This document shows positions 7,166-22,315 of a DNA stretch of 22,315 bases, one piece after another. Source of the stretch: a virus. A program made the position numbers and the translations under genes. How positions within the stretch are numbered: the stretch's first letter is position 1; the number at the start of each line of letters is the position of its first letter. The notes beneath the pieces are model-generated. The model searched no databases. It had not been told where the DNA came from and worked only from the letters and a program-made list of their open reading frames with translations. The stretch lies in the IMG/VR virus record IMGVR_UViG_3300030108_001405, positions 1 to 22,315 of that record. One strand, given 5' to 3'.

Positions 7166-7221
7166 AATTTTGTCGTATTTAAGTTTGAATGGCAGGCGTA
7201 CTTATCCTGAAATATCACACT
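7166..7221 (-). promoter_or_regulatory. 56-nt intergenic gap with a weak promoter-like AT motif
   Basis: This is the longest gap in the window. On the minus strand AAACTTAAATAC (7175-7186) lies 9 nt before the ATG at 7165, and no Shine-Dalgarno is visible. The element loosely resembles the AAAC...TATA arrangements in the gaps at 12865-12915 and 20313-20344. There is no stem plus T-run that would make a terminator. A promoter is a weak inference. Confidence 0.2.
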
Positions 7222-9058: not shown

Positions 9059-9233
9059 TGTTATTACTCATCGCTTTCTGTATCATGTCTAAGCCTTTCG
9101 GAGATACCTGAACAGTTACATCTTGTACTATATCAGGTCCTTCTTTCTTTTCTTTAAACACTTCGTTAGTTTTAGTATTACGCCACGTAGTTATCGTAGT
9201 GCAATCTATCTTAATTATGTTATCCGTTTTCAT
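9039..9233 (-). CDS. Small hypothetical protein (64 aa)
   Basis: The protein starts MKTDNIIKIDCTTITTWRNT and ends SNNNDKSKT. The first half is Thr-rich and likely beta; the middle (DIVQDVTVQVSPKGLDMI) looks like one strand and a short helix; the end is polar and disordered. It overlaps the 116-aa structural-type gene upstream by 14 nt and the GT-B gene downstream by 20 nt, which supports it as a real coupled gene. There are no catalytic or membrane features. I do not recognise a family with confidence; a small virion accessory is possible from position. Confidence 0.65.
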   Translation of the reverse strand: MKTDNIIKIDCTTITTWRNTKTNEVFKEKKEGPDIVQDVTVQVSPKGLDMIQKAMSNNNDKSKT

Positions 9234-9570
9234 TCTCTCTGTTTATTAAAGCATAACTTATAAGGCCTTGTATTTTATTACTGCCTGTAGCTGCTTGCAC
9301 AGTTATAGCATCACCTGCTTCTAAATTCAAGCCCTCAGGTGAGGCATTTACTTGCGACTTACCTGGTACGTCATCTCTAAAAAATTCATATTCAGTGCTT
9401 GAATCAGATGAATCAACAAAATTCATGTTTACTAAAATAGATGATGATGCATCGTTGTTTGCACAATAGATACTTTTAACTATAATTGTGCCATCAACAG
9501 GGCAAGTAAGCACTGTAGTCTTGCTTGCATCAGCTTGTTTGAAACCTTGATTTTTGTAAAATATACTCAT
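9220..9570 (-). CDS. Small beta-rich virion-type protein (116 aa)
   Basis: It starts MSIFYKNQGFKQADASKTTV. Alternating hydrophobic strands through the whole length (TIIVKSIYCANNDASS, ILVNMNFVDSSDS, DAITVQAATGS, GLISYALI) predict a compact beta-sandwich with no signal peptide or membrane span. That pattern fits small phage capsid-decoration, head-tail or tail accessory proteins. Its ATG overlaps the stop of the 54-aa gene (ATGA), and its end overlaps the 64-aa gene by 14 nt. Function is inferred from fold-like composition and its place among structural genes. Confidence 0.72.
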   Translation of the reverse strand: MSIFYKNQGFKQADASKTTVLTCPVDGTIIVKSIYCANNDASSSILVNMNFVDSSDSSTEYEFFRDDVPGKSQVNASPEGLNLEAGDAITVQAATGSNKIQGLISYALINRENENG

Positions 9571-9731: not shown

Positions 9732-10897
9732 TAGTAATCTTGTCTTCCTCTACCAGTTCTATTACTTACAGGACCTCCCGTTGTTGCGCTAACACCAAAT
9801 CCTTGTCCAAAATCATAAGATTTCTGACCATCAGCGCCTACTCCATATTTACCGTCACCACCACCTGATGGAGAAGTAGGTTTATCGCCACCATGAATAT
9901 TTATAGATTTAGTTTTCTTTATTTTTTCTTTTAATTCAGCTTTTTGTTTATCAAATTTAGCTTTCATACTAGTTAAGAAAGCAAAGTCACTTACATTCTT
10001 TTTATTCATCTCGTTCCAAGTTTTACCATATTCATTTGTATTATTTAAATCACCATACTTTTCGGTCCATCTATCTTTAGATTTGTCAATAGACTCCGCT
10101 TTTTTTGCATAATCGTTTTCAATAGATTCTGCATAGTTACCCATAAGACTTCTAACATTTTTACCTCTTACATCTTTTAAAAGACCAGTATTAGGATCTA
10201 CATATATTCCACTGCCCGGAACATTTTTTAGATCCATAGCAGACTTAATAAATTTTCTATCTTCATACGGAAGAGTATCAAATCTATCTAAACTTTTTAT
10301 AAATCTCATACCTGGTATAAAATCTATTGCGCTAGAAGCTATGTTTGGTACAGTTTTAGTAAAGAAATCTTTTGCTTGTGTCATGATACCTGTTGGTCTA
10401 GTAAAATAATTTCTTTGTTCGTCTATTCTTGGATCACCTAAAGCAAATTTTTGACCGCCTGCCATTACAAATGGAGCTTCAAATGTTTGTCCTACTGTTG
10501 ACTCTGTAATACCACCTTTGATAGCTTCTGGATATACATCATCAGCACTTCCATAATTTATTTTTGTTGGTAATTCTTCTACAGATTTAAAAGGAAAATT
10601 ACTTTGCATGCCTGAAGAAAAAGGCATAGGTATTGGTACAGTGGTGCCTGGATAATATTGAACATTATTTTTAATAGGCTCACCTGTAATAACATTAAAC
10701 TCTGGCTCTGCACTAGCTGCAGGTGGAAAAAAGAAATCTCCTATTCTTTGTAAAATACCTGTTTTTTCTTGTTGCTGGTTTTGAGCAGCCGCTAGATAAT
10801 TTTCTGCTTGTTGTCTAATCTCAGGTGTATCGCTATTTAACATAGCTTGTAAGTTTTGGTCTGATATACCTATTCCATAACTAATTGGTGTTGCCAT
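9731..10897 (-). CDS. Hypothetical structural-type protein (388 aa)
   Basis: The protein starts MATPISYGIGISDQNLQAML. Its start overlaps the upstream stop by one base (TAATG). Residues 1-50 are helical and Gln/Ala-rich, followed by a hydrophobic and Pro/Ala stretch, IGDFFFPPAASAEPEF (51-66). The middle is mixed and charged, with two Lys/Glu-rich helical blocks near residues 255-335. The final ~50 residues are Gly-rich (SPSGGGDGKYGVGADGQ) and end RTGRGRQDY. There is no enzyme motif. It lies directly after the nozzle-like gene in one operon, so a tail or virion accessory role is the simplest inference. The family is not recognised. Confidence 0.78.
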   Translation of the reverse strand: MATPISYGIGISDQNLQAMLNSDTPEIRQQAENYLAAAQNQQQEKTGILQRIGDFFFPPAASAEPEFNVITGEPIKNNVQYYPGTTVPIPMPFSSGMQSNFPFKSVEELPTKINYGSADDVYPEAIKGGITESTVGQTFEAPFVMAGGQKFALGDPRIDEQRNYFTRPTGIMTQAKDFFTKTVPNIASSAIDFIPGMRFIKSLDRFDTLPYEDRKFIKSAMDLKNVPGSGIYVDPNTGLLKDVRGKNVRSLMGNYAESIENDYAKKAESIDKSKDRWTEKYGDLNNTNEYGKTWNEMNKKNVSDFAFLTSMKAKFDKQKAELKEKIKKTKSINIHGGDKPTSPSGGGDGKYGVGADGQKSYDFGQGFGVSATTGGPVSNRTGRGRQDY

Positions 10898-12864
10898 TAT
10901 CTTCTTCCATCCGGTTGTGCATCTAGTCTAAAGGTTCCGTATCTCCAAGACTCCCCTGTTGAAGTATTGGCTATTTGAATTGAAACTAATCGACCTCTAG
11001 CTCGAGTATCTACTTTATCAGTGGTAGACGTTATTGTAAAGGGTCCAAGTGGTGATCCTACGGGAGCATTGTCAGGGTAATCATTTAAAAATAATGTAAC
11101 CTGCGAATTACCACGTAAGTATTTAAAGTCGGGTATAAATCTTTTAACTGACATAAAAAACTCTCCATCTCCTCTATAATCAACAACTCCGGTTTGTTGA
11201 CCCAAAGCGCTTCGTCTAGATGTAATGTCCCAATCTCCAGATTTAATAAACGCATCAATAGATGTTGTGCCAGAACTGTTGACTTGGTCATCACCTTTTT
11301 CATGACAATAATAAATAGAAGCTCCGTATAAATTAGTTATGCCACTAATAGCGGCAAAAACAGGAGTGTCTGAAGCGTTGTAATCTGTAGCATAAGGCTC
11401 AGGGTATACACCCTGATCTTGATAAGTTGATCTATCTAAGGATGAGGTTGTAAATATATTTTCTGAATAGTTATAAGTTACACATCTATCAATTTGCTCT
11501 GATCCAGATTTAGGATAGAACCAATTAATCTCTGTATATAAAGTGTTAGGAGATGAGTAAACAATATCAGCAGCTCCATAGTTGATACCTAGATTAGTTC
11601 CATCTGTACTGAATACAAAGTCTTCAACTAAACATGGTAATGATTTAACAGTACCATCAAAGACAAAGAATCCACCTTCAGCTGACATCCACCACACAGC
11701 TCCGTTTGCGTAAGATACAGCATGTTGACCTATACATCCACAGTTTGTACCCACCTGCCTTACAGAGAAAGTAAATGGTGGACCAACAAATTGAATAACA
11801 TAAGCTGCTTGATCTGTTAAACAGAACACATAATCTTTACCTTGTATAGCAGCCATAATCTTGTTTCCTGTATCTAGTCTAAAAGTACCAGCTGTATTTG
11901 TAGACGTGGGTGCGTAAGTATTTAAATCTTCCTGGTTAGAAAATCTTACAAACATCGGATCTTGTGTGGTTGAGTCTCCAATAGTTGTTTCGGTTCCAAA
12001 ATGAAATAAGTGTCTATCCCTATCAGATACAAGAGTTATTCGTGTAGCTGTAGGATTGTTTGTGGTGTTAAAATTAGTAGTGGTTGTAGAAGCGCGATTT
12101 CCTCTAGGCGCTGCAGCTCCAGCATCCCAAGTAAAAGTTTTACCATCAAATATAGTTGCTACCAATACTTCTCCAAAATTATCAAGGCTCCAGTTTCCTG
12201 GATCCAGAGTCACGTTGCTTACTGTTCGTGCCGTACCCCATGCAGAATCACCCCATAAATAAGTTCCCCATCCATAACCTAGAGTTTGAAAAGTTGGTCC
12301 TACAATTACGTAAGGTCTTACAGTTGCTGATCCAGTGCCTGAGCCTCCAGGGTTAACTGCTACAGTGGGTGCTGTAATTTTAAAAGTATGTGTGGTTACA
12401 TCTCTGATTTCAAAAGCTCCATCTGTAAAAGTAGTAGCAGATGTAAATCCATTTGGTATGACAGACATACTATTAAAAGTTATATATCGACCAGCGCTTA
12501 GTCCATGACTCGCTAAATTAACTGTGCATACGGCAGATCCCTGCACTGTATCAAATGTAGCTGTCCCAGATATTTGAGAATCTAAAGGAGTGATGTCATA
12601 AAAAGCTTCATCGTAGTACAGAAACAATCCTTGTGAAGTTCCAATAGCTACATATTTTTCACCTTGGAAACTTGTAAAAGCATGTTGTCTTCTAGCGGCT
12701 CCAGGTAAAGTTTCTTGAGCCACCGTTAACTGTTCCCAGCCACCTATTTTTTCTGGTAGTCCATATCTAAATCTAACGAAATCACCATCTACCCATTGGC
12801 CTTCGGCTCCTGAGTCTGTTGCTTGTTTGTTGAATCCTGGTTTAAAGTTAAGCTTCTGTAACAT
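10897..12864 (-). CDS. Putative tail nozzle / DNA-stabilisation protein
   Basis: This 655-aa beta-rich protein starts MLQKLNFKPGFNKQATD. The first ~45 residues (DSGAEGQWVDGDFVRFRYG, then PEKIGGW) are a signature I associate with the long propeller-like nozzle or stabilisation proteins of short-tailed marine phages. Further repeating strands include YVAIGTSQGLFLYYDE and LVSDRDRHLFHFGTE. Length lies between P22 gp10 and T7 gp12, both of which close or extend the portal channel. No enzymatic motif is present. The start at 12864 follows a 51-nt gap with promoter-like repeats and only a weak AAGG ribosome site. Its C-terminal stop overlaps the next gene by one base. The structural assignment is moderately secure; the exact tail component is not. 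Confidence 0.85.
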   Translation of the reverse strand: MLQKLNFKPGFNKQATDSGAEGQWVDGDFVRFRYGLPEKIGGWEQLTVAQETLPGAARRQHAFTSFQGEKYVAIGTSQGLFLYYDEAFYDITPLDSQISGTATFDTVQGSAVCTVNLASHGLSAGRYITFNSMSVIPNGFTSATTFTDGAFEIRDVTTHTFKITAPTVAVNPGGSGTGSATVRPYVIVGPTFQTLGYGWGTYLWGDSAWGTARTVSNVTLDPGNWSLDNFGEVLVATIFDGKTFTWDAGAAAPRGNRASTTTTNFNTTNNPTATRITLVSDRDRHLFHFGTETTIGDSTTQDPMFVRFSNQEDLNTYAPTSTNTAGTFRLDTGNKIMAAIQGKDYVFCLTDQAAYVIQFVGPPFTFSVRQVGTNCGCIGQHAVSYANGAVWWMSAEGGFFVFDGTVKSLPCLVEDFVFSTDGTNLGINYGAADIVYSSPNTLYTEINWFYPKSGSEQIDRCVTYNYSENIFTTSSLDRSTYQDQGVYPEPYATDYNASDTPVFAAISGITNLYGASIYYCHEKGDDQVNSSGTTSIDAFIKSGDWDITSRRSALGQQTGVVDYRGDGEFFMSVKRFIPDFKYLRGNSQVTLFLNDYPDNAPVGSPLGPFTITSTTDKVDTRARGRLVSIQIANTSTGESWRYGTFRLDAQPDGRR

Positions 12865-12915
12865 AAGCCTTGCATTATATAGGGTTTTTAAAATTTTGGT
12901 AGTATTATATAGCCT
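12865..12915 (-). promoter_or_regulatory. Intergenic gap with two CTATATAAT repeats, putative promoter
   Basis: This 51-nt gap separates the carbamoyltransferase C-terminal ORF from the nozzle-like gene. On the minus strand CTATATAAT occurs twice, at 12904-12912 and 12874-12882, spaced exactly 30 nt, each with a TATAAT core. TTTTAAAAAC (12884-12893) lies just upstream of the second copy and recurs in the gap before the oxygenase cassette. No good -35 box is visible. The likely role is a late promoter that restarts transcription of virion genes downstream of the cassette; this is inference. Confidence 0.38.
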
Positions 12916-13440
12916 TTATTTAGGCATGTAAATGTCTTTAAAAGGTATGTCCAGATTGGTGACGTCTTCAATAGACTCAGCTATTGGATATCCAGCCAAA
13001 TTAAAAGAGGTATTTAATAGTAAAGGAACCTCTGTTTTTTTGTAGAAAACATTAATTAAATCATAGTAATTTTTATTTTGCTCTGAGGTAACAGTCTGTA
13101 TTCTACAGCTGTCATCTACATGGACTATTGAAGGAGTGTATTTAATTGCTTTCTTTTTTGCACCTACAGCGAAAGTCATATAAGGAGACTCTTTTAAAGT
13201 AGCTAGATCAAACCAATCGTGAGCATGCTCTAAAAGAACAGAGGCAGCTAACGGCCTCCACCATTCTCTTTGTTTAAATTCATTAACGATATCTTTTGCA
13301 TTCTTGTTTCTTGGATCAAATAAAATAGATCTATTACCCAGAGCTCGTGGTCCCCATTCACTTGAACCTTGAAATATTACTAAAGGTTTTTGCTGTAAAA
13401 TTAAATCTACAGCTTCATTAACATCTTTTATTATATTCAT
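12916..13440 (-). CDS. Carbamoyltransferase C-terminal domain (NodU/TobZ type), separate ORF
   Basis: This 174-aa ORF matches only the YrdC-like C-terminal half of O-carbamoyltransferases, the half that makes and passes carbamoyl-adenylate. FQGSSEWGPRALGNRSI (23-39) is the family hallmark. REWWRPLAASVL (58-69), HVDDSCRIQTV (107-117) and PLLLNTSFNLAGYPIAES (139-156) match the remaining conserved blocks. The C-terminus (FKDIYMPK) is slightly short. The start ATG at 13440 lies inside the end of the N-terminal-domain ORF, in the +1 frame relative to it, with no Shine-Dalgarno. The two parts may be a genuine split protein made by reinitiation, a product of +1 frameshifting, or one gene broken by a one-base indel in the AAAA run at 13426-13429. 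Domain identity is strong; the gene structure is uncertain. Confidence 0.85.
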   Translation of the reverse strand: MNIIKDVNEAVDLILQQKPLVIFQGSSEWGPRALGNRSILFDPRNKNAKDIVNEFKQREWWRPLAASVLLEHAHDWFDLATLKESPYMTFAVGAKKKAIKYTPSIVHVDDSCRIQTVTSEQNKNYYDLINVFYKKTEVPLLLNTSFNLAGYPIAESIEDVTNLDIPFKDIYMPK

Positions 13441-14368
13441 GATAATATAAATGAGCTCCTATTGATATTCCACCATCCCAAGCCATTGGATCTACAAAGA
13501 AGTTTAGATGAGGGTATTTTTTTACATATTTAAAATTGTTAGTGCAGTTCAAAAAGTAACCACCGCTTAATATAAAATTATTTAAGTTTTTATATTTATG
13601 GGCTTTTTCTATTAGCTTGCAGGTTTGTTCAAAAGTTTCTTCTTGTAATTCTTTAGCTTGTCTAACTTTATCATAATCTAAATCATATTTCTTTTTACTA
13701 TCAGCGTAAGCAGCTAACCCCATAACTTTACCTGCATCTTTACCACCCCTGAAACCTAGTTGAAACCCTACACGATTAAATTCATTAGCCCCCACACTTA
13801 ACGCGCTAAATTCACATTCAGTGCCATTTATATTTTTTACTATCACCGGAGCATAGCCATGTTTCCATGTGCCGTCTAATTCTAAAAAACTCCTACAGGA
13901 GTAATGACACCATAGTTTTTTAACAAAGTTATTCTTCACATAATAAATACTTTGCATTTCTTGATAACCAGGTTTATGCGTTTGAGCACCTCCAGCGTCT
14001 ATAACAATAGCCATTGCTTCATTAAAAGGAGAAAAATATTTACCACACAAAGCATGATAAACGTGATGTTCACTACCTGTAAAATAATAAGGTGGATTAC
14101 CTAACTGTTCTTGTATTTCAGGTATAACACTTTCGTCATCATCTTTTCCATACCACCAACTATTACGTTTATCGTAAGATCCATAACATACAAAATCAGG
14201 TTTAAAGTCTATATTCATTAATATAGAAAAGTAAAAAGAATCATTTACAGTTGGCTCCCAATGTTTTTTGTAGTTGTATCTGTCTTCGTACCAAACATTA
14301 ACAAGTTGTTTATCTTTAAAATAAGCAACGGATGCTTCGTGAGAAATGTTAATACCTAAATAGTTCAT
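13418..14368 (-). CDS. Carbamoyltransferase N-terminal domain (NodU/TobZ type), separate ORF
   Basis: This 316-aa ORF is the Kae1/actin-like ATPase half of an O-carbamoyltransferase, which in known members binds metal and transfers the carbamoyl group to a sugar or natural-product hydroxyl. MNYLGINISHEASVAY is the usual first strand. EHHVYHALCGKYFSPF (100-115) holds the conserved HHxxHA metal-binding histidines (H101, H102, H105). IVIDAGG (121-127), GKVMGLAAYA (213-222), LSGGYFLNCTNN (267-278) and MAWDGGISIGA (295-305) are the phosphate and nucleotide loops. It stops at 13418 after EYNKRC, 23 nt past the start of the C-terminal ORF. Its start overlaps the upstream oxygenase as ATGA. The combined 490 aa is near or slightly below family size. 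The substrate is unknown. Confidence 0.88.
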   Translation of the reverse strand: MNYLGINISHEASVAYFKDKQLVNVWYEDRYNYKKHWEPTVNDSFYFSILMNIDFKPDFVCYGSYDKRNSWWYGKDDDESVIPEIQEQLGNPPYYFTGSEHHVYHALCGKYFSPFNEAMAIVIDAGGAQTHKPGYQEMQSIYYVKNNFVKKLWCHYSCRSFLELDGTWKHGYAPVIVKNINGTECEFSALSVGANEFNRVGFQLGFRGGKDAGKVMGLAAYADSKKKYDLDYDKVRQAKELQEETFEQTCKLIEKAHKYKNLNNFILSGGYFLNCTNNFKYVKKYPHLNFFVDPMAWDGGISIGAHLYYHEYNKRC

Positions 14369-14892
14369 ACATCCTCGCTTACAGAAAGTGTTTTCATATT
14401 GAAACTAATTCCGTATTTAATATTTTCAGACTTACTAGCTTTACATCCATGTTGTAAAAACGATGAAAACAAAACGAACTTACCTTTTTCAGGTTTTACA
14501 CTTTGATTAATTTGTGGAAACTCTAAATGTTGAGAATGTTTATTTAAATAAATAGCACCCGACCAAAGTGAGTCATGTATATGAAAATTAGTTTTCTCAT
14601 TTTTCTTTAGACAATAACCCCAAGCATCCATTAATTTATATCTGGGTAAACTTACATTTTTATCTACTTCGTCTATAAGTTTTTTCAGTATTTCATTAAA
14701 TTCTTTATCTTCTCTAAAATGCAGCCAGGAAGTCATTTGACCTTTTACATGAGTCTTATAGTTTTCGTTATCATCTTTTCTAACAGCTTCTTCTATATTG
14801 TGTATAAAATAATTACTATTAATAGGTATCTTACCTTCTATAAAAAAATAATCGGTTAGTATCTTTCTTTCAATATGTTTATTAATAATCAT
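14365..14892 (-). CDS. 2OG-Fe(II) dioxygenase-like protein (175 aa)
   Basis: The protein is probably a double-stranded beta-helix oxygenase of the 2OG-FeII_Oxy_5 type, which hydroxylates a substrate using 2-oxoglutarate and O2. AWGYCLKKNEKTNFHIHDSL (90-109) contains the iron-ligand region H104-I-H106-D107, followed by WSGAIYLNKHS (110-120). KPEKGKFVLFSSFLQHG (133-149) gives the distal His148. The residue that normally binds 2OG as Arg, 11 positions later, appears to be Lys159 in NIKYGISFN, a conservative but unusual change. The N-terminal FPTP motif common in the family is absent. The gene overlaps both neighbours by 4 nt (ATGA). The class is likely; the substrate is unknown. Confidence 0.78.
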   Translation of the reverse strand: MIINKHIERKILTDYFFIEGKIPINSNYFIHNIEEAVRKDDNENYKTHVKGQMTSWLHFREDKEFNEILKKLIDEVDKNVSLPRYKLMDAWGYCLKKNEKTNFHIHDSLWSGAIYLNKHSQHLEFPQINQSVKPEKGKFVLFSSFLQHGCKASKSENIKYGISFNMKTLSVSEDV

Positions 14893-15461
14893 AGCACGTT
14901 ACATCCTAGAACAATTCTATTGTGAGTATTATTATGTTCGGTTCCATGTACTAACCAGCTTGGAAATAACAACAGCTTTCCTTTCTCTGGTTTAAACTCA
15001 ATATAATCGTAAGTGTATTCAGTGTTTCTCAAACTCATTGTGTTTCTTAAAACATAACTGTGTGGATTATAAAAAATTAAATTAGAACTATTTTTATCTA
15101 CCTTTATATAAATGACTACCGACAAAGTAGATAAAGCGTGCGCATGTTTTTCTAACTTACTATTTTTCTTTTCTACATTAAACCAAGAGTTAGACATTTC
15201 TCCTCTAAGTATGTATCCACAATCTTTAGCATACTGTTTACAAAGATCTACGATTCGATCTTTTAAATGTTTTTTTTCAATAAAAGTTAAAAAACAATCT
15301 AAGCTATGAGTTGATTGTCCTTCTTTTATTAAAGGAATATCTTTTAATAAATGCTGATTACTCAAAATAATTTCTTCTAGTTGTTTGCACTCTTTGTTGT
15401 CAATAAAGTTGTCGTACTCTAGGACTGGCGTTGGAAAAAGTTTGTATTGTCTTATCCCCAT
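14889..15461 (-). CDS. 2OG-Fe(II) dioxygenase, 2OG-FeII_Oxy_5 type (190 aa)
   Basis: This is a complete-looking member of the short phage and marine bacterial family. LFPTPVLEYDNF (8-19) is the conserved N-terminus. SNSWFNVEKKNSKLEKHAHA (90-109) carries the first His pair (H106, H108), followed by the beta strand LSVVIYIKVD (113-122). KGKLLLFPSWLVHGTEH (160-176) supplies distal His172, and NRIVLGCNV (181-189) supplies the 2OG-binding Arg182. It shares FPTP, SWFNV and FPS...H with the 197-aa oxygenase at the other end of the cassette, so the two are probable paralogues. It overlaps the upstream gene by 10 nt and the downstream gene by 4 nt. Confidence 0.85.
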   Translation of the reverse strand: MGIRQYKLFPTPVLEYDNFIDNKECKQLEEIILSNQHLLKDIPLIKEGQSTHSLDCFLTFIEKKHLKDRIVDLCKQYAKDCGYILRGEMSNSWFNVEKKNSKLEKHAHALSTLSVVIYIKVDKNSSNLIFYNPHSYVLRNTMSLRNTEYTYDYIEFKPEKGKLLLFPSWLVHGTEHNNTHNRIVLGCNVL

Positions 15462-16096
15462 TTCTTACACTCTCTCCCCGCAGTTTTAAAATTACGGCCA
15501 TCTCTCATTCTTATTTCTTCAAAAAAAGTAATTAAGATACACCTTTCTTGATTGTCAAAACTATCAGCAGCGTGTTGATGATTAGCATCAAATAAAAATA
15601 ATTTGTTAGGCTCAAAATTTACTCTAGTGGTTAATTCAAATTGTGAATTATGTTTATCAACTAATTTATGAAATTCTTTATTTATCTTTTTAATATCTTT
15701 GTATGTTTCAAATTTTTTCTGCACATATGAGTCCCTGTCATAAGGAAAAGCTTTTGGCTTATACAGACTGGTTCCTTGGTTCTTGTTTCCTGAAATATAA
15801 ACAATGGCTGTAAATTCATCGTCATCTTGATGTATAATACCTAGACCCTCTTGTTTTATTTTTTGAAACTGCATTCTAGCAGTCCACGTCAGGTTCTGAT
15901 AATTCATTGGATATAGGGCCTGTAATATTTTATATGCAGTCATTTCAAAGAAAGGACGATTAACGTTAGACAAATAACCAGATCTAAGTCCAGGCCAATG
16001 ACCATCTGTAGGATAGTATTCAAGTTTATTAGATAGTTTTACAACCGACTCAAAGTCGTTAAAAAAATTATTTATTATTAAAGTTGGCCATCTCAT
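15452..16096 (-). CDS. 2OG-Fe(II) dioxygenase-like protein, DUF6445-like (214 aa)
   Basis: It starts MRWPTLIINNFFNDFESVVK, in the style of DUF6445-type proteins, followed by HWPGLRSG (33-40). The HxD iron motif is clear: IIHQDDDEFTAIVYIS (87-102), with H89 and D91. The distal region KLFLFDANHQHAADSF (165-180) offers His173 or His175, and ERCILITFF (184-192) gives Arg185 for 2OG. A charged insertion (~120-150) separates the halves, and a basic tail follows (MRDGRNFKTAGRECKKWG). It begins one base after the preceding stop and overlaps the next gene by 10 nt. The enzyme class is well supported; the family name is from memory of motifs and the substrate is unknown. Confidence 0.8.
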   Translation of the reverse strand: MRWPTLIINNFFNDFESVVKLSNKLEYYPTDGHWPGLRSGYLSNVNRPFFEMTAYKILQALYPMNYQNLTWTARMQFQKIKQEGLGIIHQDDDEFTAIVYISGNKNQGTSLYKPKAFPYDRDSYVQKKFETYKDIKKINKEFHKLVDKHNSQFELTTRVNFEPNKLFLFDANHQHAADSFDNQERCILITFFEEIRMRDGRNFKTAGRECKKWG

Positions 16097-16097
16097 A

Positions 16098-16565
16098 TTA
16101 AAAATAGTTTAAATTAATTACTATTCTTTCTGGTGTATCTGTTTGACTTACCATTTGATGTTTGATGTTTGAATCAAATATAACTATTTGATTTTCTATA
16201 GATTTTATTTTTTTGTCACCCACTAAAGTATAACCATTACAGGTTGTTAAGTAATATATAGCTGTGGTCGAATCTAAATCATTAACATCTGTGTGCAGAT
16301 CTGATTTATAGGGTTTTTCTTTTGCTAAAACAATATTAGCTCGTATTTGTATTACAGCTTTCATGTCTAATTTTTTAATTAAAGGAAGAACTAAATCATA
16401 GTGATCAGATTGAACTCTATGTAAATTATAAAAGCAGTGATTAAAAAAAGGAGCATCATCCCAAGTCATATGGCGTCTATAAAACCAATTACAATTACCT
16501 AAACAAAATTCTTTTAAATTAATAAAGTCTTGTTGATCTAAAAAATTTTTTATTATTTTAACCAT
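16098..16565 (-). CDS. 2OG-Fe(II) dioxygenase-like protein (155 aa)
   Basis: This is the smallest oxygenase of the cassette. It opens MVKIIKNFLDQQDF. DLHTDVNDLDSTTAIYYL (89-106) carries the HxD pair (H91, D93) and the following strand. ENQIVIFDSNIKHQMVSQT (124-142) supplies distal His136, and ERIVINLNYF (146-155) supplies Arg147 at the usual spacing and ends the protein. All three facial-triad positions and the 2OG Arg are present, so it should be active despite its length. The start lies 13 nt inside the upstream oxygenase gene and has no obvious Shine-Dalgarno, suggesting coupled translation. The substrate is unknown. Confidence 0.83.
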   Translation of the reverse strand: MVKIIKNFLDQQDFINLKEFCLGNCNWFYRRHMTWDDAPFFNHCFYNLHRVQSDHYDLVLPLIKKLDMKAVIQIRANIVLAKEKPYKSDLHTDVNDLDSTTAIYYLTTCNGYTLVGDKKIKSIENQIVIFDSNIKHQMVSQTDTPERIVINLNYF

Positions 16566-17227
16566 GGCTTTGCTGGAAAATATTTAGGTAAACCTTTAGA
16601 TGGTCGTTTATCTAAATACATCTTTCTGTTATCTTTGGTATCTTCTATATAGTGTAAAAAAACTTGTGCACACATATCTCCTTTAAATTCATCTCGCCAA
16701 TGTTCTAGATCTGCTCCTTTGTACAACAACATATCCCCTGGTTTAAGATTAACTTGACGTCCTTTACTGTTGTGAGTTTCGTAATATCTGTATCCACCAC
16801 CACCTACAAATCTTCCCATATTTTTATTTGGTTCAATAAAAATAGGCCATGGATCACCACCAAGATTTAATGTAGTAGATATTTCACACTCAGGTCTATC
16901 TTTATGTCGATGTAAGACATCACCTTTATTGTAGAGCCTAGTGTAAGCGTATGTTTCTAATAACTTTAAACCTGTCCACTTTTCCATTTTAGGTTTAATT
17001 CTTCCTAGTAGTATTTCCATGAGGATGTCTCCGTAATTAGACCATGCTCCTGGGACCTGTCCATCTTTCCATGTTCCATAAAAAGCTGTTTCAGGTAAAA
17101 GATAACGTTCGTTATATAGATGCGCTGCCGCTGTTCTTTTTAAAAGTAAATACTCTACACACAATTTAGCTATCTGTGGATCAATTACTTTTCTTTTAAC
17201 GTCGTATCCTAATTTATTAAATTTCAT
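16553..17227 (-). CDS. 2OG-Fe(II) dioxygenase, prolyl-4-hydroxylase-like (224 aa)
   Basis: This 224-aa protein starts MKFNKLGYDVKRKVIDPQ. YTRLYNKGDVLHRHKDRPEC (95-114) carries the HxD motif as H108-K-D110, then STTLNLGGDPWPIFIEP (117-133), a strand arrangement typical of P4H-like enzymes. NLKPGDMLLYKGADLEHWRD (160-179) supplies distal His176. The usual 2OG-binding Arg is not at its expected place: the strand reads CAQVFLHY (186-193), with Gln188 or perhaps Lys182 nearby. I recall this QVFLHY form as a recurrent subfamily feature, so it need not mean inactivity. It overlaps the upstream oxygenase by 1 nt (TAATG) and the downstream one by 13 nt. Confidence 0.82.
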   Translation of the reverse strand: MKFNKLGYDVKRKVIDPQIAKLCVEYLLLKRTAAAHLYNERYLLPETAFYGTWKDGQVPGAWSNYGDILMEILLGRIKPKMEKWTGLKLLETYAYTRLYNKGDVLHRHKDRPECEISTTLNLGGDPWPIFIEPNKNMGRFVGGGGYRYYETHNSKGRQVNLKPGDMLLYKGADLEHWRDEFKGDMCAQVFLHYIEDTKDNRKMYLDKRPSKGLPKYFPAKPWLK

Positions 17228-17823
17228 TATCTAAAAGGTTTACCATTAACCCAACACACTAATGAGTACCTTTCTCCTTTTGTAACTGGTCTTACTTCAT
17301 GCAATGTATAACTAGGAAACAAAGTTAATTGCCCCTGATGTTTTTCTATTATCATAGGCTCGGGTCCTTGATGCAGCCATAGCTCTCCCCCTGAATATTC
17401 ATTTGGATTAGTTAATTGCACAACCGCAGATAATTTTCTAACGGTGCTATTATAAATTTTATCTAGATGTGCTTTATATTTGCCATCAGGGTGTTTGTAA
17501 TGTGTAAATTGTATTGCTTCAATAATTCCATTTAAATCAAATTTAAAATATTGATTATTAAAATCTGTTACAATTCTAGCTATTCTCTCATAAAACCATC
17601 TAGACTCTTCACACATTCCTAACCAAGCTATATTACTTTTTCTAACTTGTTGGTCAGGGCTTAATACTATTCCTTTTTTAGTTTTAAAAGTATTACCATA
17701 AGATATTATTTTTTTACATTCTTCTGGAGTAAATGCTTCTTGTACATGCACCACGTGAGAAACGTGGTCAAAGTCAAACATCCACGAAGAACCTACTACG
17801 TTATTTTTTTTATTCTTCTTCAT
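17227..17823 (-). CDS. PKHD-type 2OG-Fe(II) hydroxylase (PiuC/YbiX-like, 198 aa)
   Basis: This is the best-conserved oxygenase here. HVVHVQEAFTPEECKKII (23-40) is the usual helix after the first strand. GKYKAHLDKIYNSTVRKLSA (114-133) gives H119-L-D121. VVQLTNPNEYSGGELWL (134-150) is the typical core strand and Gly-Gly turn. QLTLFPSYTLHEVRPV (165-180) gives distal His175, followed by KGERYSLVCWVNG (182-194) with Arg185. This matches the LHEV.PVT.G.R pattern of PKHD hydroxylases, whose substrates are generally unknown. The lysine-rich start (MKKNKKNN) spans an 8-A run and lies 14 nt inside the upstream gene; Met15 is an alternative start. Confidence 0.87.
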   Translation of the reverse strand: MKKNKKNNVVGSSWMFDFDHVSHVVHVQEAFTPEECKKIISYGNTFKTKKGIVLSPDQQVRKSNIAWLGMCEESRWFYERIARIVTDFNNQYFKFDLNGIIEAIQFTHYKHPDGKYKAHLDKIYNSTVRKLSAVVQLTNPNEYSGGELWLHQGPEPMIIEKHQGQLTLFPSYTLHEVRPVTKGERYSLVCWVNGKPFR

Positions 17824-18367
17824 TAATGGTCAAATCAAATCCAATCACCATTCTGTCTTTATCACTTTGATTAACGGGTGCAAAGTGCTCTACACATGCA
17901 GGGAAAATTATAAGATCTCCTTCTTTCAAATTAGGGTATGGCGCTGTAAACTCTAAATCTCCAGATATTAAATTAGGCCAAGGTTTTTTAAATATCACTG
18001 GAGAGTGTTTGCTAGCATCAAAATCAATATAAAGAACAGCTGTAAATCCTTTATTGCCATGATGATGCATTAATTGATCATTACCTTTTTTATAATTAAC
18101 AGCCCACGCTTTACTTACTTCTACACTTTTCTTTATTTCTTTGGTAAAATTTTCTAGTTCAGCAGAAACAAGAGCTGCTATCTGTTTTTTAAAATCTAAA
18201 TGTTTATAAGGCACGCAAGAGAATAAAAAAGTATTACTATAAAAATTTTGTATTCCTTTCTTTTCTAAAGGAAATTGTTTTATTAAACTTTTAATCTTCT
18301 TTTTCTTAATTTTAAAATCTTTTAACGCATAACGCCAAAGAGGGATAGCCATTAACATTTCTTTCAT
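17810..18367 (-). CDS. 2OG-Fe(II) dioxygenase-like protein (185 aa)
   Basis: It starts MKEMLMAIPLWRYALKDFKI. Met1 is chosen because its ATG overlaps the upstream stop as ATGA; Met6 (MAIPLWRYAL) would look more like the family's FPTPL start. AWAVNYKKGNDQLMHHHGNK (87-106) carries the His cluster 101-103 in the iron site, then FTAVLYIDFDASKHSP (108-123). LKEGDLIIFPACVEHFAP (147-164) supplies distal His161, and KDRMVIGFDL (170-179) supplies Arg172. It resembles the 2OG-FeII_Oxy_5 group, with a basic helix at residues 17-32. The first metal motif is HHHG rather than clear HxD, so the exact ligands are uncertain. It is probably active; the substrate is unknown. Confidence 0.82.
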   Translation of the reverse strand: MKEMLMAIPLWRYALKDFKIKKKKIKSLIKQFPLEKKGIQNFYSNTFLFSCVPYKHLDFKKQIAALVSAELENFTKEIKKSVEVSKAWAVNYKKGNDQLMHHHGNKGFTAVLYIDFDASKHSPVIFKKPWPNLISGDLEFTAPYPNLKEGDLIIFPACVEHFAPVNQSDKDRMVIGFDLTINEEE

Positions 18368-19722
18368 TTATTTATTCTCTCCATAAAAGTTATTGTTCTT
18401 TCTAGTTTATCTGTCATATTATTATAATTATCCAAAAATAGCAATTCTTTTTCCCACAGCTTTTCATAATATTCAGGGTCAAAGGTCTTATGTCTTATTA
18501 TATCTTTCACACAATTTTTTAAATCTAAGGCTGTAACGACATCTGCTTCAAAGATCTTATTCCAGTAGGAGTTGTAATTGTTTTCAGTTTTAGAAAGAAA
18601 CATGAGATAATTTTTTTCTGCTTCACGATCTATTTTTCTACATTCTTCATTAAAATGATTTTTATACATCTGTGAAAAGATAACTCCGTCTTCAAAGAGA
18701 TCCACTAACTTAAATACTTTTTTAATTAAAATATCTAATGGGTTATCAATTAAAGGCTCTACCCAGTTATTGTTATAAGTAAAATCTATTACATCTTTAT
18801 TGTAATAATTATAATTAGAATTCTTGACTATATCTTTTATATCGAAATGTTTGTAATAAATTCTATGGCTTTTAAGTATGTGATCTCCTGTTACAAAAGT
18901 AGCTTGCTTACCTGTTAAGTAATGTTTATTAAAAAAATAATTTACTTCAATTCTATTCCATAGACATCTCTCCATGATATAACCATTATCTTTAGCTATG
19001 TAACATCTAGAATTAATTATTTGTTCTTTCTTATTCTTATAAGGAAATGAAGCTGTTATTAGAGAATTATTATAATGTGTTTGTTCAGGTTTGTGTTTAA
19101 AAAGATCATCTGAACAATCTATATACAGACCAGCTTTTAAAGGTAGACCTCTGTTAATAGATGTTTCTAAAAATCTTATGTAACCGTTTTCTTCGTAAAC
19201 AATATTTTTTATATTACAATCTATTATTCTACCCTCTAAATTTTTTTGAAATACTTCTTTACACAAAAAGTTTGTTGCTTTTATAGAATCAAAAGTAAAT
19301 GCGTAGTCATCATTTATATTTTTATCTATTAAATTACCTTTAAGCTGACTAGCTAACTTAGAAGTATACTCTATTTCTTCTTCTGAAGTCATTTTGGGAT
19401 TCAAAGCTTTTTTATAAACTAAAAGATCTTCGTTGGCTGTGTCGTTTGTTTTAATATGCAGGCTACCTTTTTTGTAAAAATTTTTATAAACAGAGCCAAC
19501 AACAGGGACTCCATTAGTTTCTTTTAAAAATTGTTCTACCGAGATATCATTTAAATCTAAAATAATTTTAATTAATTTACTATCCATAACAACAGGGACA
19601 TTTGATCCTTGTTTTTTTAAATCTACAATTCTTACATCTGCATTGTAACCAAAAAAGTTTCGTAAAATAATTGCAGTCGCTACCGCATAAATATTATATC
19701 CTAAAATGTAAATTGTTTTCAT
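18364..19722 (-). CDS. Flavin-dependent (tryptophan) halogenase homologue with eroded active site
   Basis: This 452-aa protein aligns by eye along PrnA/RebH-type halogenases. FTFDSIKATNFLCKEVF (142-158) corresponds to their HFDA...FL block, ENGYIRFLETS (178-188) to the following strand, and LYIDCSDDLF (199-208) to LFIDCSG. NWVEPLIDNP (319-328) corresponds to FLEPLESTG, and SYWNK near 386 to the late PFW. Key positions differ: the FAD glycine loop reads ILGYNIYAVA, the VGEAT loop reads VVMDSKL (44-50), the catalytic Lys (PrnA K79) falls on Val74, the catalytic Glu (E346) falls on Ile325, and WxWxIP is replaced by YIMERC (248-253). It may have lost halogenation or do something else. It is coupled by ATGA overlaps to oxygenase genes on both sides. 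The family is likely; activity is doubtful. Confidence 0.77.
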   Translation of the reverse strand: MKTIYILGYNIYAVATAIILRNFFGYNADVRIVDLKKQGSNVPVVMDSKLIKIILDLNDISVEQFLKETNGVPVVGSVYKNFYKKGSLHIKTNDTANEDLLVYKKALNPKMTSEEEIEYTSKLASQLKGNLIDKNINDDYAFTFDSIKATNFLCKEVFQKNLEGRIIDCNIKNIVYEENGYIRFLETSINRGLPLKAGLYIDCSDDLFKHKPEQTHYNNSLITASFPYKNKKEQIINSRCYIAKDNGYIMERCLWNRIEVNYFFNKHYLTGKQATFVTGDHILKSHRIYYKHFDIKDIVKNSNYNYYNKDVIDFTYNNNWVEPLIDNPLDILIKKVFKLVDLFEDGVIFSQMYKNHFNEECRKIDREAEKNYLMFLSKTENNYNSYWNKIFEADVVTALDLKNCVKDIIRHKTFDPEYYEKLWEKELLFLDNYNNMTDKLERTITFMERINK

Positions 19723-20312
19723 AAGCTTAACCTTTTTAATCTAGAATTAGTTCCTAATGTTCCTTTTATAAACACATTAAAAGCAATAGATTTTCTATCT
19801 TCTAGCCCTGTGTGAGTTTTTACAGAGTGCTCTAATTCAGAAGGAAACAAAATAATTTGATTTGTATCTACATTCTCAAAGAAAGTATCTGTGTTAAAAT
19901 GATTAAATTGTTTTTTATCTATTTCAATAGTTGCATTGAAATGTTTATGAAAGAATATTGTAGCCTCATTTAAATAAAATACTCCAGAAACAATTGAATT
20001 AGGATGTTTGTGATTGTGGTGTTTATGATTAGGTTTAGTTACATTAAACCAAGACTCCGTAATATAAGGTGTTATAGGATCTGCTGGAGAAACAATTTGA
20101 TTAAAATAATCATCTACTCTTTTTTGCAGTTCTTGTTTTAATTTTTTAAGAGGAACAGCGCTTAAAATATCACTATTATCTGAGGATAGATTAAATTCAT
20201 TATTTAATAATGTTAGTGAATCTAAAAACTTTAGCTCTTTAGATGTAAGTTTTCTATCTAAAATAGACTTATATAAGGGGGTGGGAAATAAACCTTTTAT
20301 CTCTGCTTTCAT
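19719..20312 (-). CDS. 2OG-Fe(II) dioxygenase, 2OG-FeII_Oxy_5 type (197 aa)
   Basis: This is the first gene of the cassette. GLFPTPLYKSIL (7-18) is the family's N-terminal motif. TESWFNVTKPNHKHHNHKHP (85-104) leads into the iron-binding His cluster (H99, H101, H103), followed by SGVFYLNEATIFF (109-121). NQIILFPSELEHSVKTHT (151-168) supplies distal His162, and EDRKSIAFNVFIKG (171-184) supplies Arg173. All expected elements are present. The start at 20312 has no clear Shine-Dalgarno and follows a 32-nt gap; the stop overlaps the halogenase-like gene by 4 nt. It shares FPTP and SWFNV with the 190-aa oxygenase and is probably its paralogue. The substrate is unknown. Confidence 0.85.
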   Translation of the reverse strand: MKAEIKGLFPTPLYKSILDRKLTSKELKFLDSLTLLNNEFNLSSDNSDILSAVPLKKLKQELQKRVDDYFNQIVSPADPITPYITESWFNVTKPNHKHHNHKHPNSIVSGVFYLNEATIFFHKHFNATIEIDKKQFNHFNTDTFFENVDTNQIILFPSELEHSVKTHTGLEDRKSIAFNVFIKGTLGTNSRLKRLSL

Positions 20313-20344
20313 GCAGGATCTATATCAGTTTTTAAAAAGAATGT
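20313..20344 (-). promoter_or_regulatory. Short gap before the cassette, possible promoter
   Basis: This 32-nt gap contains, on the minus strand, TTTTTAAAAAC (20328-20338) followed by GATATAGATC, 8 nt before the ATG at 20312. The same TTTTAAAAAC plus TATA arrangement occurs at 12865-12915. No Shine-Dalgarno or terminator is visible. A promoter for the cassette is possible but not proven. Confidence 0.28.
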
Positions 20345-20821
20345 CTAGGCGTAAGGATTTGGTGGTTGACTAGCAGGGTCGTAAGGAGTCACTGAATCAG
20401 CGTCTAAAACCCAAGCAGAGCCATCCCAATTATAGTTTTGAATGTTACCTGCATCACTATCTATTTCTACTTTAACCCAATTACCTGTTTCAAAATCAAA
20501 GTAAACCATGTCATTACTTGGTTCAGGATTTGCTACTGGATTTTCCCATTCTTCAGAAGAATCATTCCACACAAAACTTGCATGTGGAGCTGGGTGTTTA
20601 AATTTATTATCATTAAATTCAGCGTTTACACAAGGTTTTCCAGAGTAAGCAGCCACATCGGCAGGGTCGCCTACCCAAGTACCTCCACCTGCTTTATTAG
20701 CAGAAAATGCAGCACCTTTACTCTCATCATAAACTCCATCTGTAAAACAGTCTGAGGAATCTACAACGATACCATTAGTTACTTGATTGCTCTCTATTTT
20801 GTAAAATTTATGTAGGCTCAT
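20345..20821 (-). CDS. Small tail-fibre-associated protein with Trp/Asp repeats (158 aa)
   Basis: It starts MSLHKFYKIESNQVTNGIVV. Residues ~20-60 are Gly/Asp-rich (GGGTWVGDPADVAAY). Three similar aromatic strand-turn units follow: FVWNDSSEEWENP (83-95), VYFDFETGNWVKV (106-118) and YNWDGSAWVLD (130-140). The C-terminus is Pro-rich (PYDPASQPPNPYA). The W-D...W-x-P pattern is like that seen in tail-fibre and fibre-accessory proteins of marine cyanophages. It lies 2 nt downstream of the Gly-rich adhesin gene, so co-expression is very likely. It has no enzyme motif and no signal peptide. The role as a fibre accessory or chaperone is inference. Confidence 0.75.
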   Translation of the reverse strand: MSLHKFYKIESNQVTNGIVVDSSDCFTDGVYDESKGAAFSANKAGGGTWVGDPADVAAYSGKPCVNAEFNDNKFKHPAPHASFVWNDSSEEWENPVANPEPSNDMVYFDFETGNWVKVEIDSDAGNIQNYNWDGSAWVLDADSVTPYDPASQPPNPYA

Positions 20822-20823
20822 AA

Positions 20824-21612
20824 TTATGCTGTTGATAGCGATCTATATCTAACTATCACTACTCCATTCGCTGATGTACATGGACCACCTCTTGATGATG
20901 GTGAGCCATTTCCGTAAATTGTTTGAACACTTGGACTAATTGGACCCCAACCTGATGGGTTAGAAGATTCACCTACTCCACCTGCAGCATAAGTATACGG
21001 AGAACCTGTGATGTCATTAACAGTTCCTGGTCCTCCAGGTCCTGCAGCATAACCTCCGCCGTTTTGACCAGGGCCGCCCGATCCGCCGCCTCCGCCGCCG
21101 CCGCTGAATGGTCCGCCCATTGTCGATCCTCCTGGATTTCCTTCAGGTGGTGAATAGCCTCCAGCATTTCCAGAGCCGCCTGCTCCTCCTCCCGATCCTC
21201 CCGGGCTGCCGGTTCCACCGCCACCAGTAGTATTAATACTATTAAATGAAGAAGTTGTTCCGCTACCTCCTGGTGTATTGGTACCTTGACCAATAACTAC
21301 AGGGTAAGTTTGAACTGCTACAGTCATGTCGTAAGCACCGTTGGCTCTATAGCCTCCCGCACCTCCGCCACCTGCAGATCCTGCATGCGATCCATTTCCG
21401 CCACCTGCAACGACTAAATATTCAACTTGGTCGTCTCCGTTATCTCCTAGTTTTTCAACTACAAAATCTCCAGAAGCAGCAAATAAATTAATTCCATAGT
21501 CTCCGTCATAACTTAAAGTACCACCATTAGCAACGATCCCTGGCGGTAAACCCCCACCTGTGAAACCAAATGATTTAGCACTTCCTGCTCCGAAACTTCC
21601 TAGTATTGGCAT
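20824..21612 (-). CDS. Glycine-rich adhesin-like tail protein (262 aa)
   Basis: The protein starts MPILGSFGAGSAKSFGFTGG. After a short domain, VEYLVVAGGG (63-72) opens a long glycine-rich region (~69-200) with GGGG, GGSG and GPGGPG runs, ending with a strand GVVIVRYRS (250-258). VEYLVVAGGG...GVVIVRY is the usual frame of the glycine-rich domain in phage tail-fibre tips and bacterial surface proteins. Such proteins, like T4-type adhesins, often determine receptor binding, with glycine loops that change quickly. The coding stretch for the glycine runs (~21060-21220) is clearly more GC-rich than the window. A strong AGGAGG precedes the start, the best ribosome site here. The adhesin role is inference from family. 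Confidence 0.8.
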   Translation of the reverse strand: MPILGSFGAGSAKSFGFTGGGLPPGIVANGGTLSYDGDYGINLFAASGDFVVEKLGDNGDDQVEYLVVAGGGNGSHAGSAGGGGAGGYRANGAYDMTVAVQTYPVVIGQGTNTPGGSGTTSSFNSINTTGGGGTGSPGGSGGGAGGSGNAGGYSPPEGNPGGSTMGGPFSGGGGGGGSGGPGQNGGGYAAGPGGPGTVNDITGSPYTYAAGGVGESSNPSGWGPISPSVQTIYGNGSPSSRGGPCTSANGVVIVRYRSLSTA

Positions 21613-21633: not shown

Positions 21634-22315
21634 TTACGCAAACTGAGATTGAGAAGCTAACGCTGTAAACGTAGCTGATCCAGTTTTAATAATAGTATAT
21701 GAATAAACATCTAAAGAGTTAACATTTCCACCTGTAGGTGCCGATCCTCCTTGCCATTCTGGCGTTATTGAAGAGCCGTCAATTGTTACAGCTGAATTGT
21801 AATATGCTGATGAGCCTTGTTTTACAATGTGAGCAACTGTAATTGATTCACCTGTGTCCATGATAGAATCTAAAGAGTTTGATCCATCACCTCTAATATT
21901 TAATGTCCAGTTAGCACCTGCATCAGTAGTGTAGTTTAACACCGCTTGAGTAAGTACATCGTAGTTGATTGTACCTGTAGCGGCTACAGCTGCTGTAGTA
22001 ACTTTTTCTGCAACACTTTGAATTTTACCTTGACCATTGAAAGTCGCTCTACCGATTCCTTTTGGTGTAAGGTTTAGATCAATATTAGTGTCGCCACCAG
22101 TTGCTGCCATTTCAGGTGCGTTACCAGTTGCTGCGTTTGTGAGCTGAAATTCGTTAACTGCAGATCCAGTAGTTACAAATTTAAGTTGTTCATTACCGTT
22201 TTCGTCAATGATACCTGTAGCAGTATCAATAGTAATGTTTTTACCATTTGCGTCTAGGTCTGCTGAAAGTTGTGGTGAGAAGTCAGATGATAAATCTGTA
22301 AATGCTGTATCAACA
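21634..22315 (-). CDS. Tail-fibre-like structural protein, C-terminal part
   Basis: The reading frame stays open to the right edge, so the gene begins outside the window; the internal ATG at 22110 (MAATGGDTN) is not its start. The visible 227 codons begin VDTAFTDLSSDFSPQLSADL, followed by DANGKNITIDTATGII. SPQLSADLDANG belongs to a repeat-like element common in marine phage tail-fibre proteins. LNLTPKGIGRATFNGQG follows, then a beta-rich C-terminal domain (TITQA-like strands, GANWTLNIRGDG, YTIIKTGSATFTALA). Gly, Thr, Asn and Ser dominate and there is no catalytic motif. Its stop lies 21 nt before the Gly-rich gene. It is most likely a trimeric fibre or appendage protein; the exact part is unknown. 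Confidence 0.78.
   Translation of the reverse strand, partial: VDTAFTDLSSDFSPQLSADLDANGKNITIDTATGIIDENGNEQLKFVTTGSAVNEFQLTNAATGNAPEMAATGGDTNIDLNLTPKGIGRATFNGQGKIQSVAEKVTTAAVAATGTINYDVLTQAVLNYTTDAGANWTLNIRGDGSNSLDSIMDTGESITVAHIVKQGSSAYYNSAVTIDGSSITPEWQGGSAPTGGNVNSLDVYSYTIIKTGSATFTALASQSQFA

Follow-up and report, generated by a model that had tools for sequence, protein, structure and literature searches.

Why should a phage carry eight oxygenase-like genes almost back to back? The question is raised by a 22,315-base fragment of viral DNA, IMG/VR record IMGVR_UViG_3300030108_001405, referred to in the following as the window, which is related to the Pelagibacter phage HTVC027P (77% DNA identity, in three pieces within positions 5604–9331). 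All large open reading frames (ORFs) of the window lie on the minus strand. An earlier note, made from the sequence alone, had listed eight of them, here called A to H (Table 1), as Fe(II)/2-oxoglutarate (2OG) oxygenases in a run interrupted by one other gene. All eight are indeed found with the positions and lengths it gave, and only a halogenase-like ORF (18364–19722) breaks the run. In our best explanation, in which we place about even confidence as a whole, the window comes from an HTVC023P-type pelagiphage and the array is a horizontally exchanged island for the combinatorial tailoring of polypeptides, its most likely targets being the tail or adhesin proteins of the phage itself.

Each of the eight ORFs belongs to the Fe(II)/2OG oxygenase superfamily, as judged from its sequence profile, from motifs conserved among its relatives or from the fold predicted for it. 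In Pfam, A, B, G and H scored above the cut-off of 2OG-FeII_Oxy_5 (PF13759), F above that of 2OG-FeII_Oxy_3, and C above that of DUF6445. When the families were compared profile to profile with hhalign, most pairs among A, B, D, F, G and H matched at >95% probability, and C matched D at 97%. ORF E gave the weakest links, 88% to B and 84% to F, and the alignments of E and C matched nothing in profile searches of the PDB. For the seven ORFs other than E, the double-stranded beta-helix fold is predicted from the sequence profiles and the hhalign links. The labels that the PHROGs database attaches to ORF D (phrog_274, "DNA endonuclease V") and ORF C (phrog_1644, "minor coat protein") are probably wrong. 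The eight genes are not recent tandem copies: matches within the window reach at most 27% identity over the aligned part, while the nearest relatives in other phages, leaving aside the close cassette relatives L089–L091, are 30–53% identical. We rejected tandem duplication on these grounds.

The spacing of the catalytic residues follows the pattern that had been read from the sequence. The proximal and distal histidines of A to H are 44, 66, 86, 45, 68, 56, 60 and 61 residues apart, spanning the proposed range of 44–86, and the Arg expected some 10 residues further on is present at H+10 or H+11 in six ORFs (B, C, D, F, G and H), with a Lys in A and no counterpart in E. Taken alone, the His pattern is weak evidence: after shuffling, a mean of 4.6 of the eight proteins still matched a loose H-x-[DEH]...H pattern, and about 1% of trials had it in every protein. 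The claim is borne instead by family, conservation and fold evidence. Conservation was assessed in 7 to 119 non-redundant sequences per family. The HxD/E...H motif is kept in 14/14 relatives of C, 49–50 of 50 (98–100%) of D and 78/78 of E; among 119 relatives of F, the carboxylate position is Asp in 104 and Glu in 14, and the histidines are kept in 118–119. ORFs A, B, G and H lack the two-His-one-carboxylate triad, the carboxylate position being occupied by His in 22/22, 79/79, 7/7 and 44/45 relatives, respectively. In A, all three of H104, H106 and H148 are kept in 22/22 relatives, and in G the full HxH...H in 7/7. HxH occurs as well in 3bvc and 2rg4, two solved proteins of Oxy_5-like type, which argues that it is a trait of the Oxy_5 family and not a sign of decay.

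ORF E matches the PHROGs family labeled "ferrochelatase" (phrog_2954) at 1.5e-46, a label shared by its relatives in many cyanophages and pelagiphages. An AlphaFold prediction of ORF E with 73 relatives (a 74-sequence alignment) gave a mean predicted local distance difference test score (pLDDT) of 94.1 and a predicted template modeling score (pTM) of 0.90; folding without an alignment gave a pLDDT of 36, and that model was discarded. The predicted model is a double-stranded beta-helix. Its top Foldseek match was the prolyl-4-hydroxylase (P4H) of P. putida (4j25, E = 6e-8), and VIA-align superimposed it on SnoN with Z = 17.2 and a root-mean-square deviation of 3.5 over 194 aligned residues, and on PHD2, P4H and lysine halogenase/hydroxylases with Z = 15–16. 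ORF E matched no Pfam or NCBIfam model, and so none of the curated models of cellular ferrochelatases; a cellular relative in Methylomonas matched the 2OG Pfam model PF13532 at 1.5e-4, below the cut-off. From the predicted fold and the conserved motif, we conclude that phrog_2954 is a family of 2OG oxygenases and not of ferrochelatases. A prolyl-hydroxylase-like fold would mean that the published pairing of oxygenases with ferrochelatases in these phages needs correction. The label underlies published ideas about heme and iron metabolism in these viruses (PMC9599517, PMC11561400), and the reclassification would remove it. Altogether, three PHROGs families (phrog_2954, phrog_274 and phrog_1644) appear to be misannotated, with fold evidence for phrog_2954 alone.

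In coding order, the locus runs from the end of a tail fibre gene through a 262-aa glycine-rich protein (a putative receptor-binding adhesin) and a 158-aa protein to the oxygenase array. The carbamoyltransferase, encoded by two ORFs, comes next, then the 655-aa virion protein, and downstream of it some small proteins, a pair of glycosyltransferases and a protein of DNA-ejection type. The array extends from 20312 down to 14365, and most of its ORFs overlap their neighbors by 1–14 nt, with a gap of 1 nt between C and D. We gathered 160 related IMG/VR loci (numbered with an L) by two independent anchors, the 655-aa protein and ORF E. Of these, 54 cover the whole interval between the 655-aa protein and the tail fibre or adhesin, and 46, including the window, remained after requiring a glycine-rich gene and removing redundancy. 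All 46 have 2OG genes at the same spot, 2–10 each with a median of 5, and 233 of the 291 cassette ORFs of at least 90 aa are of 2OG type, counts that are only slightly lower under stricter calling. The oxygenase sets are reshuffled from locus to locus, with whole blocks inverted in some. Among 80 loci found via ORF E alone, 75 hold a tail-side or flank gene, and 77 of 79 E genes adjoin another 2OG gene. In this, the array matches the hypervariable islands for host recognition: its content varies, it lies between conserved modules, and tail fibre genes adjoin it. The idea that a run of eight is exceptional was not supported, as related viral loci have up to 10 and multiple 2OG genes had already been published (PMC9599517); eight oxygenases fall within the normal range for the lineage. 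A contiguous run of 11 ORFs of 2OG type was seen in L190 (NZAX01000069.1), a 7.8-kb contig binned as Flavobacteriaceae that is probably phage.

The array can move between phages as a block. The window and L090 are joined by a single alignment of 8,672 bases at 89.4% identity (12904–21571), from the start of the adhesin to the end of the carbamoyltransferase. Beyond it, identity in protein sequence is only 47% for the 655-aa flank and, at the opposite end, 54% over 56 aa for the fibre. An 8.7-kb block including the whole adhesin has been exchanged intact between divergent phages, with sharp edges. L009 and L013 carry the flank of the window at 81–84% DNA identity and do not have its cassette in common, save for a short stretch of E in L013, and the Jaccard index of cassette content with the window is ≈0–0.07 at high backbone similarity. 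Single genes are also gained or lost: L091 lacks ORF A, which is missing exactly between ATGA junctions, so that B runs into the carbamoyltransferase at an overlapping stop and start. All of the oxygenase genes are under purifying selection, with ratios of nonsynonymous to synonymous substitution (dN/dS) of 0.07–0.25 (saturated for C against L091), which argues that the enzymes are maintained and not decaying.

The other genes in the cassette are mostly hydroxyl-directed. Carbamoyl-, sulfo- and O-methyltransferases take hydroxyl acceptors, which is what 2OG hydroxylases create. The two halves of the carbamoyltransferase are overlapping ORFs in different frames. A frameshift caused by sequencing error is an unlikely origin of this split, because L090 is split identically and both halves are under purifying selection (dN/dS ≈0.1). 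Cassettes of relatives also hold sulfotransferases, a TylF-type O-methyltransferase and JmjC-like ORFs; the sulfo- and O-methyltransferases are absent from the window. The halogenase-like protein of the window lacks the motifs of tryptophan halogenases, with GYNIYA in place of GxGxxG and no WxWxIP, while both motifs are retained in the halogenases of many other cassettes. The motif-less protein is nevertheless conserved in L090 and L091 under purifying selection, and is either a partner protein or a fold turned to a new use. Two further families were noticed in the cassettes. One, of 167–179 aa (L011 946–1485, L019 2181–2711, L029 2023–2526 and L058 2333–2866), resembles a degenerate double-stranded beta-helix and has no clear metal triad and no significant Pfam match. 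The other, a conserved protein of ≈105 aa, is in many cassettes encoded immediately upstream of the 655-aa protein (L011 5112–5435, L019 5452–5769, L035 9666–9977 and others) and is absent from the window.

Table 1. Features of the oxygenase array and its surroundings, in window coordinates.
Feature	Position	Strand	Evidence and remarks
655-aa virion structural protein, fixed flank of the cassette	10897..12864	-	phrog_3287 3.8e-77; ~90% identical in backbone relatives, 47% in L090
Carbamoyltransferase, C-terminal half, 174 aa	12916..13440	-	PF16861 1.8e-52; separate frame
Carbamoyltransferase, N-terminal half, 316 aa	13418..14368	-	PF02543 3.2e-10; in one operon with the array; dN/dS 0.06-0.09
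ORF A, 175 aa, 2OG-FeII_Oxy_5 type	14365..14892	-	PF13759 6.5e-9; HxH104/106...H148, Lys at H+11
ORF B, 190 aa, 2OG-FeII_Oxy_5 type	14889..15461	-	PF13759 6.2e-18; HxH106/108...H172, R182
ORF C, 214 aa, DUF6445-type 2OG oxygenase	15452..16096	-	PF20043 5.7e-9; H89xD91...H175, R185
ORF D, 155 aa, 2OG oxygenase	16098..16565	-	PF13640 5e-4, below cut-off; H91xD93...H136, R147
ORF E, 224 aa, P4H/PHD-like 2OG oxygenase, database label "ferrochelatase"	16553..17227	-	phrog_2954; H108xD110...H176
ORF F, 198 aa, PKHD/PiuC-like 2OG oxygenase	17227..17823	-	PF13640 4.2e-16; PDB 3dkq PKHD hydroxylase 6.4e-8; H119xD121...H175, R185
ORF G, 185 aa, 2OG-FeII_Oxy_5 type	17810..18367	-	PF13759 1.8e-10; HxH101/103...H161, R172
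452-aa flavin-halogenase-like protein	18364..19722	-	phrog_2928 4.6e-21; PDB VirX1 3e-4; without GxGxxG and WxWxIP
ORF H, 197 aa, 2OG-FeII_Oxy_5 type	19719..20312	-	PF13759 1.2e-15; HxH101/103...H162, R173
158-aa small tail-associated protein	20345..20821	-	phrog_7759 1.1e-3; inside the shuffled zone in L031, L039 and L042
262-aa glycine-rich protein, putative receptor-binding adhesin	20824..21612	-	PF21722 Gly_rich_2 2.9e-6; within the 89.4% block common to L090
Tail fibre, C-terminal part	21634..22314	-	phrog_5906 7e-30; open at the window edge; outside the swapped block; L090 allele 54% identical over 56 aa

The same oxygenase families form arrays beside the tail fibre genes of T4-like pelagiphages and cyanophages, including Mosig, S-CAM8 (with a carbamoyltransferase), S-SCSM1 and S-RIM32; in HTVC008M, the array adjoins neck genes. 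When bacterial genomes were scanned with the alignment of E, 63 loci were found (E-values are inflated for members of the training set); many of those numbered L179–L195 resemble phage contigs in bins. Within the fetched flanks of the 44 other cellular E-family loci, markers of lasso-peptide type were found in 11, where far fewer would probably be expected by chance. These markers are Asn-synthase-like proteins (whose best NCBIfam model is lasso cyclase, below the strict cut-off), PqqD proteins and HprK-like kinases; L213 also has a B2 protein above the cut-off. Several of the marker-bearing loci hold Oxy_3 or Oxy_5 genes as well. Four bacterial clusters of lasso type with E-family genes (L213, L237, L241 and L230), most with Oxy_3/Oxy_5 genes or HprK-like kinases and one with a SET protein (L230), possibly encode heavily tailored ribosomally synthesized and post-translationally modified peptides (RiPPs). 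A characterized 2OG enzyme, CanE, hydroxylates a lasso peptide (PMC9266682).

How might such an island work? Swapped horizontally, and lying between the tail genes for receptor binding on one side and the 655-aa virion protein on the other, it would act late in infection, when each enzyme most likely oxidizes, mainly by hydroxylation, one of the side chains of a phage polypeptide. As target, the co-inherited glycine-rich adhesin or the tail fibre would be the best candidate, because of its adjacency, because of co-transfer in the one case that was resolved, and because phages of unrelated types again have such arrays next to their tail fibres. Some of the new hydroxyls would then be capped by the island's carbamoyltransferase and, in relatives, by sulfo- and O-methyltransferases, and a swap of the enzyme set would alter the chemistry of the host-contact surface with its sequence unchanged. 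We infer the catalytic activity, the polypeptide substrate, and the adhesin or tail as that substrate. We counted in favor of a polypeptide the predicted resemblance of ORF E to P4H and PHD2, which are protein hydroxylases, and took the cellular E-family genes in lasso-type clusters, together with CanE, as a link to peptides. The earlier note had proposed either a multi-step oxidative pathway or a set of hydroxylases acting on several sites of one target. The latter is supported indirectly, as is the call of the enzyme family, whereas a fixed pathway is not: gene content turns over almost freely on near-identical backbones (2–10 oxygenases), and single genes come and go cleanly, like ORF A in L091. 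Modification of independent sites therefore fits better than an ordered pathway.

Several observations weigh against tailoring of the tail or adhesin. In HTVC027P, the oxygenase genes at this spot adjoin a tail-collar protein and not a glycine-rich adhesin, and S-P4 has a lone E-family gene in its replication module. Cassette content does not clearly follow adhesin sequence, with a borderline partial Mantel r of 0.14 (p = 0.055) that is no stronger than for the other flank (0.13, p = 0.012). The number of oxygenases does not rise with the Pro, Lys, Asn or Asp content of the adhesin and falls with Ser and Thr, so that there is no residue-level signal. Finally, four of the eight ORFs have HxH and not HxD, lacking the classical carboxylate ligand; the iron/2OG chemistry that their family name implies is less certain for A, B, G and H, and theirs is a putative metal centre.

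The hotspot might instead be a host-interaction island whose enzymes alter host surface molecules (lipopolysaccharide, glycans, lipids) or small metabolites, leading to superinfection exclusion or seroconversion. Sulfo-, methyl- and carbamoyltransferases act on sugars too, and two conserved glycosyltransferases are encoded at 7222–9058. Pelagimyophage host-recognition islands with glycosyltransferases have been proposed to change the host surface (PMC7029224). We consider this rather unlikely here, since the glycosyltransferases are part of the backbone, beyond the swapped block, the cassette sits in a late structural operon, and the relatives of E indicate peptides. That operon also speaks against modification or repair of DNA or nucleotides by hydroxylation of the TET, JBP or AlkB kind, or against counter-defence, as do the predicted P4H/PHD-like fold of ORF E and the failure of all eight ORFs to reach the Tet_JBP or AlkB models. 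Such a role remains improbable to us, even though phage DNA modification can involve 2OG oxygenases and carbamoyltransferases, counter-defence genes often reside in hypervariable islands, and there are PHROGs labels such as "DNA endonuclease V".

A role in auxiliary metabolism has been proposed for cyanophages (PMC3037559): by draining or sensing 2-oxoglutarate, or through action on osmolytes and amino acids of the host, the enzymes would steer nitrogen and carbon metabolism. Seasonal enrichment in pelagiphages would agree with such a role (PMC11561400). However, a single active oxygenase would suffice to drain 2OG, and neither the proximity to tail genes, the turnover of the sets nor the group-transferase companions is predicted, making this explanation very unlikely. 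A last alternative, to which we attach similarly little weight, is a RiPP-like pathway whose enzymes mature one small phage-encoded peptide, a toxin or anti-competitor, and not a virion protein. The cellular E-family genes in lasso-type clusters would fit, and the mixture of halogenase, 2OG enzymes and methyl- or sulfotransferases resembles RiPP tailoring, but no cyclase, B2 protease or PqqD-like ORF was recognized in the window with Pfam or PHROGs, an analysis that left aside ORFs of <60 aa as possible precursors.

Pelagiphages and cyanophages rank among the ocean's most abundant viruses, and the anatomy of this locus makes the question of why they have so many 2OG oxygenases testable on the virion proteins of cultured cassette carriers (HTVC023P, Mosig). 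It is conceivable, though we put it forward tentatively, that marine phages diversify their receptor-binding proteins enzymatically, with interchangeable hydroxylases and capping transferases putting a combinatorial pattern of modified side chains on a tail adhesin. This would be a post-translational counterpart of diversity-generating retroelements. That these phages have many 2OG genes was already known (PMC9599517). In the open-licence literature, we found neither the array as a module swapped with an adhesin, nor the reclassification of the "ferrochelatase", nor the link to lasso clusters, although an earlier reclassification elsewhere is possible.

One of the closest known systems is that of the HTVC023P-type pelagiphages, which have eight non-orthologous 2OG families across their pangenome, often near one another (PMC9599517). 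The lineage and the multiplicity of 2OG families are the same; in that study, however, the oxygenases are described as non-adjacent and as partnered with ferrochelatases, whereas here they form a contiguous, block-swapped array in which the "ferrochelatase" is itself predicted to be a 2OG oxygenase. The 262-aa glycine-rich protein (PF21722) is reminiscent of the glycine-rich gp38 tail adhesins of T-even-type phages, suggesting a receptor-binding tip (PMC12892980), but differs from them in that sequence searches matched it to no solved chain, adhesins included. CanE and other RiPP-tailoring 2OG enzymes use a ribosomal peptide as the substrate (PMC9266682), as the enzymes of the island may, and cellular homologues of E occur in lasso-type clusters; lasso maturation genes were not recognized in the window. 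The host recognition cluster (HRC) of pelagimyophages is also a hypervariable island with cassette-like content between tail fibres and a conserved structural module, and the spot of the pelagimyophage arrays overlaps the published HRC between VrlC and a neck gene (PMC7029224). The HRC belongs to large T4-like phages and carries glycosyltransferases, whereas the present island is of podovirus type and consists of ≈80% 2OG oxygenases by ORF count. Finally, cyanomyoviruses have the same mixture of 2OG, prnA and carbamoyltransferase genes, with several 2OG genes per genome (PMC3037559). There, these genes were read as modulating nitrogen and 2OG or as serving repair, whereas here synteny and peptide context indicate the tailoring of polypeptides.

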